The position numbers were made by a program, and so were the translations under genes. Shown piece after piece: positions 31,590-35,082 of a stretch of 64,000 nucleotides of DNA (position 1 is the first letter of the stretch; every line of letters starts with the position of its first letter). The notes beneath the pieces were generated by a model. That model did not search any database, was not told the DNA's origin, and saw nothing but the letters and a program-made list of their open reading frames with translations. The stretch lies in the NCBI RefSeq assembly GCF_009600605.1, contig NZ_VWNA01000001.1, positions 3,768,501 to 3,832,500 on the forward strand, read 5' to 3'. This stretch comes from Segnochrobactrum spirostomi. Its GTDB lineage: Bacteria; Pseudomonadota; Alphaproteobacteria; Rhizobiales; Segnochrobactraceae.

Positions 31590-32441
31590 TCAGCCCTTCG
31601 CGAGAAAAGCCTTGAACGCCTCCGCATGATCGGGATGCCAGCGCGACAAAGGCGGGCGGTTCTCCACGATGTCGCCGGCGGCCCACAGGATGCGCCGCTC
31701 GTCGAGGCCGCGGCAGACTTCGTTGTCGGGGCAGAGGATGTAGAAGTCGCCGTCCTCGATCCGCGCGATCATGAAATCGACCGTCTCCTCCGGCGTCCAG
31801 GCGCCGTCCGGCTTTTCGAGGCGGCCGCGGGCGGTGAGCGCGGTGAAGACGAAGCCGGGGATGAGGAGGTGGGCGGAGACGGCGGCGCCGGCGGTGTTGC
31901 GCAATTCGTGCTGGAGAGCCTCGGTGAACGCCTTCACGCCGGCCTTCGACACGTTGTAGGCCGGGTCTCCCGGCGGCGTCGTGATGCCCTGCTTCGACCC
32001 GGTGTTGATGACGAGGCCCGGCGCGCCGGAGGCGATCATGCCGGGAACGAAGACTTGGGTGCCGTGGATCACGCCCCAGAGATTGACCGCGAGGATGCGC
32101 TCGAAGGTGCCGTCCGCGTCGAAGATCGAGCTGCCGGGCTGGATGCCGGCATTGTTCATCAGAACGTGGACCGCACCGTAGCTCTCGAGCGCCGCATCGC
32201 GCAGCCGCTCGACCTCGTCGCGCCGCGACACGTCGGTCGCGACCGCGAGCACGTCGGCCTTGCCGCCGGCCGCTGCGGCGGCGACGGCGTCCGCGGCCGC
32301 CTCGAGACGGTCGCCGCCGATGTCGGCGAGGACCACCTTGAGGCCGAGGGCCGAAAAGCGCTTCGCCGCCGCGAGCCCGATGCCGGAGGCCGCCCCGGTG
32401 ACGACGGCGACGTGCGAAGGGGACAGGGCGGGATGGGGCAT
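31590..32441 (-). CDS. Short-chain dehydrogenase/reductase
   Basis: This 283-residue classical SDR has the cofactor loop TGAASGIG at 15-22, the acidic D40 (ADIGGDR) suggesting NAD use, the NNAG motif at 96-99, Ser149 in NTGSKQG and Y162-x3-K166 in YNVSK. The substrate loop and the C-terminus are longer than in the shortest SDRs. It is divergent from the trp leader, with ~200 bp between. The substrate is not known. Confidence 0.93.
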   Translation of the reverse strand: MPHPALSPSHVAVVTGAASGIGLAAAKRFSALGLKVVLADIGGDRLEAAADAVAAAAAGGKADVLAVATDVSRRDEVERLRDAALESYGAVHVLMNNAGIQPGSSIFDADGTFERILAVNLWGVIHGTQVFVPGMIASGAPGLVINTGSKQGITTPPGDPAYNVSKAGVKAFTEALQHELRNTAGAAVSAHLLIPGFVFTALTARGRLEKPDGAWTPEETVDFMIARIEDGDFYILCPDNEVCRGLDERRILWAAGDIVENRPPLSRWHPDHAEAFKAFLAKG

Positions 32442-32612
32442 CGGCAGGTCTCCTCGGAAGCGGGCGGATCGCGGCGTTCAGGATGCGGTCGAGACATAGG
32501 TTGGGGCCGCCCGGCGGTCCACTCCCCTGAGGGCCGTCGCGGCGCGAACGCGCTGCACATGCGCGTGTTCCACCGCCGCCGGTGCTGCACGCCGCCGCCC
32601 GTGTCTGCGCCC

Positions 32613-32642
32613 TTGCCATCCGGCCGGCTTTGCCCCTACAAG
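32613..32642 (+). promoter_or_regulatory. Promoter for the leaderless trpL transcript
   Basis: TTGCCA (32613-32618) and TACAAG (32637-32642) are 18 bp apart. The trpL ATG begins 7 bases after the -10 element, so the transcript probably starts at the A of the ATG. The same leaderless layout is known for trpL of Sinorhizobium meliloti. Confidence 0.55.
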
Positions 32643-32649
32643 AAGGGCC

Positions 32650-32700
32650 ATGACGACCGTTCGCTCGATCAACGCTGGCTGGTGGTGGCGCGCCTCTTGA
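32650..32700 (+). CDS. trpL: Trp leader peptide TrpL
   Basis: A 16-residue frame MTTVRSINAGWWWRAS has three consecutive Trp codons at 32680-32688 and a TGA stop at 32698-32700. It has no Shine-Dalgarno and should be translated leaderless. It sits 196 bp upstream of trpE(G), and a terminator hairpin with a competing antiterminator follows. The composition matches alphaproteobacterial trpL peptides, in which the ribosome stalls at the Trp codons when tryptophan is scarce. Confidence 0.85.
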   Translation: MTTVRSINAGWWWRAS

Positions 32701-32755
32701 GGCGGCCGTCGCGGGCGCGTGTCGAAACCGACGTGCGATCGAAAAGAGGGCCGCC
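32701..32755 (+). promoter_or_regulatory. Trp antiterminator structure
   Basis: GGCGGCC (32701-32707), just after the trpL stop, can pair with GGCCGCC (32749-32755), which is part of the terminator's 5' arm. A further 9-bp hairpin (32716-32737, with two G-U pairs and an AAAC loop) fits between. A ribosome stalled at the Trp codons leaves 32701-32707 free, which favours this fold and lets transcription continue. Confidence 0.6.
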
Positions 32756-32785
32756 CAGGGAAACCGGGCGGCCTCTTTCGTTTCT
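32743..32785 (+). terminator. Trp attenuator terminator
   Basis: The stem pairs AAAGAGG-CCGCCC with GGGCGGCCTCTTT (one bulged G) and ends in a GAAA tetraloop, followed by TTTCT. It lies 42 bp after trpL and 111 bp before trpE(G). It should stop transcription when tryptophan is plentiful. Confidence 0.8.
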
Positions 32786-32895
32786 GGCCCCCGGATCCCG
32801 GGCGGTGGAGGCCGGAGGGCGCCGTCCCTTCGGGGTTCAACGAGGCAGCAGCGGCGGCAGCGGCATGGAGCGCGCGCCCCGTGGGAGACCGACAG

Positions 32896-35082
32896 ATGGC
32901 CGGAGCCGGGGACCTGATCTATCGCACCGAGGGGCGCATCGCCGTGACCCGGCGCGCCCGCGAGATCGATCATCGCGATGCCATCGGCCGCTGGGTCGAC
33001 CGGCTCGACGTCGAGCGCGGGGCGGTGTTCTCGTCGAGCTACGAATTTCCCGGCCGCTACACCCGGTGGGACATCGCCTTCGTCAATCCGCCGCTCGTCG
33101 TCGAGGCGAAGGGGCGTTCGGTGCGCGTCGCCGCGCTCAACGCCCGCGGCCAGGTGCTGCTGCCGGCGATCCGCCGCACCCTCGCGGCGCTGCCCGAGAT
33201 CGCGCACCTGGAAGACATTGCCGACGGCTTCACCGCGGTCGTGGCCGAGGCCGCGGGCGAGTTTCCCGAGGAGGAGCGCAGCCGGCAGCCGTCCGTGTTC
33301 TCGGTCGTGCGGGCGCTGGTCGCCCTGTTCCGCTCCGACGAGGATCCCCATCTCGGCCTCGCCGGTGCGTTCGGCTACGATCTCGCCTTCCAGTTCGAGC
33401 CGATCGAACTGAAGCTCGCGCGTCCCGACGACCAGCGCGACCTCGTCCTGTTCCTCCCCGACGAGATCCTGATCGTCGATCATTATGCCCGCCGGGCGAC
33501 CGTGTTTTCCTATGATTTCGAGGTCGACGGCGTCTCGACCGACGGCCTGCCGCGGGACGGCGCGGTGCGGCCCTTCAAGGCGGCCGACCGTGTCGTCGGC
33601 CGCGGCGACCACGAGCCCGGCGAATATGCCCGCACCGTCGCCAAGGCCCACGATTATTTCCGCCGCGGCGACCTGTTCGAGGTGGTGCCCGGGCAGACCT
33701 TCACCGAGCGCTGCGCGGCCCCACCGTCCGCCGTCAGCCGCAAGCTCGCGGCGATCAATCCGGCGCCCTACGGCTTCTTCATGAACCTCGGCGCCGACGA
33801 ATGGCTCGTCGGCGCCTCTCCCGAGATGTTCGTGCGCGTCACCGGTGGGCGCCGCGTCGAGACCTGCCCGATCTCGGGGACCATCGCTCGCGGCCGCGAT
33901 GCCATCGAGGACGAGGCGCAGATCCGCAAGCTCCTCAACTCGAAGAAGGACGAGGCCGAGCTGACGATGTGCTCGGACGTCGACCGCAACGACAAGGCCC
34001 GCGTCTGCGAGCCCGGCTCGGTGCGCGTGCTCGGGCGGCGCCAGATCGAGATGTATTCGCGCCTGATCCACACGGTGGACCACATCGAGGGTCTGCTGCG
34101 CGACGGGATGGACGCGCTCGACGCCTTCCTGTCCCACGCCTGGGCGGTGACGGTGACCGGCGCCCCGAAGAAGTGGGCGATGCGCTTCATCGAGAACCAC
34201 GAGAAGAGCCCGCGCGCCTGGTACGGCGGGGCGGTCGGCATCGTGCACTTCAACGGCGACCTCAACACCGGCCTGACCCTGCGCACGGTGCGCATCAAGG
34301 ACGGTGTCGCCCAGGTTCGCGCCGGCGCCACCATCCTGTTCGATTCCGTGCCGGAGGAGGAGGAGCGCGAGACCGAGCTCAAGGCCTCCGCCATGCTCAC
34401 CGCGATCCGCGAAGCGGGACAGCCGCCGAAGCCCGCCGCGGCGGCGGCCGCGGGCGTCGCCGCGAGCCATCGCCGGGTCCTCCTCGTCGATCACGAGGAT
34501 TCCTTCGTCCACACCCTCGCCGATTATCTGCGCCGCACCGGCGCCGAGGTGACGACGCTGCGCACCCCCGTCGCGCCGGCGGCGTTCGACCGGCTTGCGC
34601 CCGATCTCGTGGTGCTGTCGCCCGGCCCCGGCCGGCCGGCGGATTTCCACTGCGCCGAGACGATCGCCGAGGCGCGGCGGCGCGGCCTGCCGATCTTCGG
34701 CGTCTGCCTCGGGCTCCAGGCGCTCGTCGAGGCCTTCGGCGGCCGGCTCGATCAGCTCGCCTTGCCGATGCACGGCAAGCCGTCGGAGATCACCGTCAGC
34801 GAGCCGGGCCGCCTGTTCGCCGGCCTGCCGGCGAGCTTCGCGGTCGGGCGCTATCACTCGCTGATCGCCGACCGGGCGGTGCTCCCGGCCGAGCTCAAGG
34901 TCACGGCGGAGACGGCGGACGGCGTGGTGATGGCGATCGAGCACGTCTCCGAGCCGATCGCCGCGGTGCAGTTCCACCCGGAATCGATCATGACGCTCGG
35001 CGGCGAAGTCGGCATGGCGATCATCCGCAACGCCGTCGCCACCCTGCGCCCCGGCGACGCCCGGATTCAGGCGGCGGGGTGA
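32896..35082 (+). CDS. trpE(G): Fused anthranilate synthase TrpE-TrpG
   Basis: The 728-residue length is that of the fused enzyme of Rhizobiales, and the start at 32896 has GGGAG upstream. Residues 1 to ~510 are component I (chorismate binding), with [14 protein letters not shown], the conserved [12 protein letters not shown] and [17 protein letters not shown]. Residues ~530-720 are a class I glutamine amidotransferase with the catalytic C604 in GVCLGLQ, H694 and E696 in FHPES. The enzyme converts chorismate and glutamine to anthranilate, the first step of tryptophan synthesis. It is controlled by the trpL attenuator upstream. It is a single gene here. Confidence 0.97.

Follow-up and report, generated by a model that had tools for sequence, protein, structure and literature searches.

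Upstream of the fused anthranilate synthase gene trpE(G) lies a short Trp-rich reading frame followed by GC-rich inverted repeats, and the question is whether these form a complete ribosome-controlled attenuator, whether its RNA starts directly at the trpL ATG, and whether the released RNA and its peptide act beyond their own gene. For this we analysed a 64-kb stretch of DNA (the window, G000:C1:3768501-3832500) from a 5.4-Mb genome. The candidate attenuator sits between a divergent ORF on the minus strand (31590-32441), which we take to be of the SDR type, and trpE(G) at 32896-35082. The features discussed below are:

32613-32641, plus strand: putative promoter, with -35 TTGCCA (32613-32618), a 17-nt spacer and -10 CTACAA (32636-32641); geometry as in relatives.
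32650-32700, plus strand: trpL leader peptide ORF, MTTVRSINAGWWWRAS and a stop codon, with its start predicted at the transcript 5′ end; an equivalent ORF is found in 77 of 110 loci.
32680-32688, plus strand: sensor of three consecutive Trp codons (UGG), read from the sequence.
32678-32716, plus strand: region 1:region 2 hairpin of the minimum free energy structure, its 5′ arm overlapping the Trp codons.
32701-32707, plus strand: region 2, GGCGGCC, directly 3′ of the UGA stop and a perfect complement of region 3.
32749-32755, plus strand: region 3, GGCCGCC, the exact reverse complement of region 2, common to antiterminator and terminator.
32743-32778, plus strand: intrinsic terminator (region 3:region 4) predicted by folding, 15 pairs, -25.3 kcal/mol.
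32650-32786, plus strand: predicted attenuated RNA (rnTrpL counterpart) of about 137 nt, with a fold z of -2.9 and a covariance model match at 32686-32780.
32883-32888, plus strand: Shine-Dalgarno-like GGGAGA before the trpE(G) ATG at 32896.
32896-35082, plus strand: trpE(G), the presumed controlled gene, encoding a fused anthranilate synthase of 728 aa with full-length relatives at 54-80% identity.

Rhodobium orientis provided the best named relative of the trpE(G) product (69%), and in a kinship search the remaining genomes fell into the window's own order, one that we judge to be Hyphomicrobiales. PF00425 had a single further match in the genome (L155:669-2920), followed by a glutamine-amidotransferase-like ORF. 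As we take these two to be a pabB-pabA-like pair, the genome probably has no anthranilate synthase besides trpE(G). The trpD and trpC genes are unlinked to it (G000:C1:974464-976189). No trpL-like leader was found upstream of trpD, the sole WW micro-ORF of the trpDC stretch being located inside a ppiD-like ORF; the ORF order there reads ppiD-trpD-trpC-moaC-moeA, in which the names besides trpD and trpC are our own assumptions.

The run of three Trp codons described by the initial annotation can be read directly as UGG UGG UGG, and trpL is the only WWW micro-ORF of up to 30 aa on either strand of the window. Exact complementarity and folding also bore out the proposed competition between an antiterminator (32701-32707 with 32749-32755) and a GAAA-capped terminator (32743-32778, loop at 32760-32763). 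In isolation, the segment with regions 1 and 2 (32677-32717) folds at -26.0 kcal/mol and the antiterminator with its inner hairpin at -31.9 kcal/mol. The U-tract of the terminator is interrupted, its tail UCUUUCGUUUC beginning inside the stem, and a pattern scan scored the hairpin on the minus strand only. As little as one of 200 shuffled sequences folded as well as or better than the 137-nt RNA (z -2.9), and three of 200 reached the energy of the region 2:3 duplex.

To see what a ribosome on trpL would do to these structures, we folded the leader with a ribosome assumed to cover 18 nt upstream and 14 nt downstream of the first base in the P site. When any of the codons Trp1, Trp2 and Trp3 occupied the A site and transcription had just passed region 3, the region 2:3 duplex formed with all 7 pairs. 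A ribosome that had the stop codon in its A site covered region 2; no region 2:3 pair was left and the terminator formed. With no ribosome, region 2 was taken by region 1. For the complete RNA at equilibrium the terminator was the minimum at every ribosome position, that of a stalled ribosome included, from which it follows that the switch must be kinetic, like the one of the classical attenuation model.

The mechanism we propose is the following. RNA polymerase would start at or beside the A of the trpL ATG, and the leader would thereby be a small mRNA of the leaderless kind. A shortage of charged tRNA-Trp would make the ribosome stall on one of the three UGG codons and cover region 1, leaving region 2 free to pair with region 3, and transcription would run on into trpE(G). 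With plentiful tryptophan the ribosome would reach the UGA and cover region 2, so that region 3 could pair with region 4 and the terminator would release an RNA of about 137 nt. Lack of translation would allow region 1:2 pairing, making termination the default. The sequence elements, their complementarity and conservation, and the folds predicted for each ribosome position are as observed here; that transcription actually terminates at this locus, and does so in response to tryptophan, we infer. We are confident that the window contains a transcription attenuator which works through the ribosome and belongs to the trpLE(G) type of Alphaproteobacteria.

The conservation was evaluated in a survey of 110 loci (L003-L112; L001 was omitted as a duplicate of the window locus), for which we required an ATG-initiated micro-ORF of 11-26 aa containing WW and located 100-330 nt upstream of trpE(G). 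If a leader offered several ATGs, the one giving a peptide nearest to 15 aa was chosen. A like leader was found upstream of trpE(G) in 77 loci, 76 of them unique (L033 duplicates L009), and in 27 of the 30 loci of the initial set of relatives. The 33 loci without a leader passing the filter include three in which the upstream region is missing (L032, L077, L081), the cyanobacterial loci, L066 and L067, and loci from Chachezhania (L073), Pseudooceanicola (L078) and a Rhodobacteraceae MAG (L082). They also include L025 and L026 (genomes G065 and G100), which have a clear trpE(G) and lack a WW micro-ORF in the 700 nt before it, and which apparently lost or replaced the attenuator. Loci labelled as Candidatus Binatia, Binatota and Acidimicrobiales MAGs (L079, L080 and L084) carry trpE(G) with an upstream Trp-run micro-ORF, starting with GTG in L084; we propose horizontal transfer or mis-binned contigs as the source of these leaders.

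The 76 leaders are uniform in their main elements. The longest Trp run is 3 codons in 60, 2 in 15 and 4 in one, and the peptide measures 14-16 aa in 68. The region 2 core CGGC, a motif picked after viewing the leaders, stands no more than 24 nt from the stop codon in 64 (shuffled mean 11.9, maximum 23). Three Rhizobiaceae-type leaders depart from this arrangement, those of Xaviernesmea oryzae (L057), Agrobacterium rosae (L076) and a Neorhizobium MAG (L094): the trpL ORF extends beyond the Trp run and ends in FTRP or FARP, and region 2 (CGGCC) is found inside the ORF just before the stop codon, not after it. The energy of region 2:3 pairing has a median z of -1.6 in the 76 relatives, and in 29 of them at most 10 of 200 shuffles gave a duplex as strong, a weak contrast that is probably due to the sequences being short and GC-rich.

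As our terminator finder, which allowed one mismatch and no bulge, failed on many leaders, terminators were located instead by folding successive segments; judged by eye, this procedure mis-calls L019, L020, L029-L031 and L056. We kept 67 leaders after removal of L019, L020, L029-L031, L080, L107, L112 and the identical region L018, and 63 of these (without L056, L057, L076 and L094) made up the rows of alignment A1. Across the 63 leaders pairing in the terminator core amounts to 95.2%, and none of 500 shuffles reached its 27 two-sided changes; in the antiterminator core pairing amounts to 87.7%, again a value that no shuffle of 500 attained. Covariation in the antiterminator was matched by 68 of 500 shuffles (two-sided cells), 46 of 500 (score) and 438 of 500 (further pair types), weak support that follows from a nearly invariant core.

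From 41 of the 67 leaders (A2) we built a covariance model, R1; L003-L005 were left out deliberately and a further 23 to thin the set, so that the training set was without the family of the window. R1 matched the window at 32686-32780 with 49.1 bits, the next match (18.8 bits) being the opposite strand of the same hairpin. In the whole genome this site was the best of 16 matches, with an E-value of 2.9e-8 that is rough since the calibration was short, and the runner-up reached 29.5 bits. Two other members of the window's family gave 45.7 and 44.3 bits, while five cyanobacterial trpE(G) loci gave no match at E up to 1. By sequence and structure the leader is a homologue of the trpLE(G) attenuators of the rnTrpL type. 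Conservation, a model built without the window's own family and the folding per ribosome position together give strong support to the cis-acting trpL attenuator with competing structures that had been proposed for this locus.

Of the 15 other R1 matches in the genome, we inspected seven (23-30 bits), two of which overlap another match of this group. By eye they are terminator-like hairpins; no Trp-run leader was found at any of the seven, and as candidates for further trpL leaders they were rejected as looking like ordinary terminators. This genome has repeated hairpins of the form GGCCGCC...GGCGGCC flanked by A-rich and T-rich stretches (L159 and L163, for example); some match R1 on both strands, and they are apparently two-way terminators.

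No Rfam family reached its gathering score in the window. The best sub-threshold family was RcsR1 (RF02552; 20.9 bits vs. a gathering score of 60), and Trp_leader (RF00513) reached 15.5 bits vs. 41; as both cut-offs were missed, we do not file the leader under either. Among 150 relatives RcsR1 passed its cut-off in one, G025, right upstream of trpE(G). In the genome-wide search, which used stricter filters, it gave no match at E ≤ 0.001 in the window's own genome and reached this value at trpL in 3 of 27 leader-bearing genomes (G025, G061, G097); sub-cut-off matches occurred also in Caulobacter vibrioides, which served as a control, and in another six genomes. With G025 as the only one of the 27 searched leader-bearing genomes in which RcsR1 passes its cut-off, the trpLE(G) attenuator class has only sparse coverage by current RNA models.

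The same attenuator may also release an RNA and a peptide with effects in trans, the RNA (rnTrpL) on trpDC and further mRNAs and the peptide (peTrpL) in the antibiotic response. Such action would add to the cis attenuator and would not exclude it. We consider it possible, at somewhat less than an even chance, by analogy with Sinorhizobium meliloti, in which the locus architecture is the same and the RNA is reported to be leaderless, as we predict it to be here; trpDC is unlinked in the genome of the window too. According to a review (PMC7143759), RcsR1 and rnTrpL have the same transcription position in S. meliloti, and Agrobacterium and Bradyrhizobium share the conserved action of rnTrpL on trpDC. 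A role of peTrpL homologues is reported for S. meliloti, A. tumefaciens and B. japonicum despite dissimilar peptides (PMC7298713). We examined pairing between rnTrpL and trpDC in 10 of the 27 genomes by a sliding, accessibility-weighted duplex search, a crude procedure run without a positive control, and saw no clear excess over background. In the genome of the window, 2 of 437 background windows equalled or beat the best trpDC site, and in the 10 genomes 0 to 6 of 437 did so, which is roughly what chance would give for the best of about 300 trpDC windows. On the other side, the best trpDC site was above every background window in two of the 10 genomes, G002 and G112, a mis-called terminator end having been used for the latter. 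The motif GGCGGC, complementary to region 3, was counted by eye in trpD of 17 of the 27 genomes; it coincides with a conserved protein motif (IGGFL and its variants) and is therefore no evidence of RNA targeting. The trans action of the RNA and peptide proposed for this locus accordingly rests on analogy. A further reading, in which the RNA of about 137 nt and the 16-aa peptide would be a dual-function trans regulator with a target set of its own, unlike that of S. meliloti, is suggested by the GC-rich hairpin separating region 2 from region 3 and by a peptide that differs outside the Trp run; we regard it as rather unlikely.

It had also been claimed that the promoter places the transcript start at the trpL ATG. 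By the E. coli consensus the promoter of the window is weak, and a sigma-70 consensus scan of 32300-33100 found no promoter. Comparison with relatives is more informative on this point than that scan. In the window TTGCCA lies at -37 and CTACAA at -14 from the trpL ATG, in line with the relatives: TTG at -37 to -35 is found in 66 of the 76 leaders (shuffled mean 3.1, maximum 9), [CT]TA at -15 to -13 in 56 (mean 5.6, maximum 13) and both elements at the set distance in 54 (mean 0.26, maximum 3), as determined with 1000 shuffles at positions that were picked after viewing the same 76 leaders. This geometry recurs in relatives, and the start itself is what we infer from it.

The attenuator could instead be transcribed from an upstream start, with trpL using AGAAGG (32641-32646) as a Shine-Dalgarno sequence. 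The presence of this motif before the ATG and the weak promoter would fit such an arrangement, as would Shine-Dalgarno matches of at least 4 bases in 14 of the 76 leaders; but AGAAGG leaves a gap of only 3 nt to the ATG and shares bases with the -10 element, 62 of the 76 leaders have no 4-base match, and in 54 promoter-like elements keep a constant distance to the ATG. In S. meliloti, moreover, rnTrpL is reported to start at the AUG (PMC7298713, PMC10117765). We therefore consider an upstream start improbable. The promoter-ATG geometry, the rarity of Shine-Dalgarno matches among the 76 leaders and the case of S. meliloti make it likely that trpL of the window is leaderless, with its transcript starting at the ATG. 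As the promoter-AUG spacing recurs across the group, leaderlessness may be a general trait of trpLE(G) attenuators and not a peculiarity of S. meliloti.

That a plain gene-end or intergenic terminator merely adjoins a chance Trp-rich ORF is hardly credible: other GGCCGCC/GGCGGCC terminator-like hairpins do exist in this genome, but 77 of the 110 loci have such a leader before trpE(G), most with region 2 behind the stop codon, the site scores about 20 bits above all further R1 matches reported for the genome, and the window has no second WWW micro-ORF.

The cis-acting attenuator can be compared with known systems. In the enterobacterial trp operon leader, attenuation follows the same four-region, ribosome-mediated logic as proposed for the window. 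The E. coli leader controls the trpEDCBA operon, and that of the window trpE(G); the window sequence differs from the enterobacterial leader (RF00513, 15.5 bits) and its start is predicted to be leaderless. In S. meliloti trpDC is likewise unlinked, presumably in the gene order ppiD-trpDC-moaC-moeA. The trpLE(G)/rnTrpL (RcsR1)/peTrpL locus of this species likewise has three Trp codons near the trpL 3′ end, before trpE(G). Attenuation there is reported to involve two exclusive structures upstream of trpE(G), with rnTrpL starting at the trpL AUG (PMC7298713), and rnTrpL is reported to have been seen in Ribo-seq as a small leaderless mRNA (PMC10117765). The peptide MTTVRSINAGWWWRAS differs from the S. 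meliloti peptide outside WWW, the two being alike by eye only in the Trp run. The trpL genes of B. japonicum and A. tumefaciens are likewise Trp-run micro-ORFs, with WW in B. japonicum (PMC7298713) vs. WWW in the window. Relative to the R1 consensus, the window has a 10-base insertion that forms part of the hairpin between regions 2 and 3. The feature is already understood in kind and well conserved, an alphaproteobacterial trpL/rnTrpL attenuator, and the window adds a well-defined trpLE(G) attenuator from another family of the same order.
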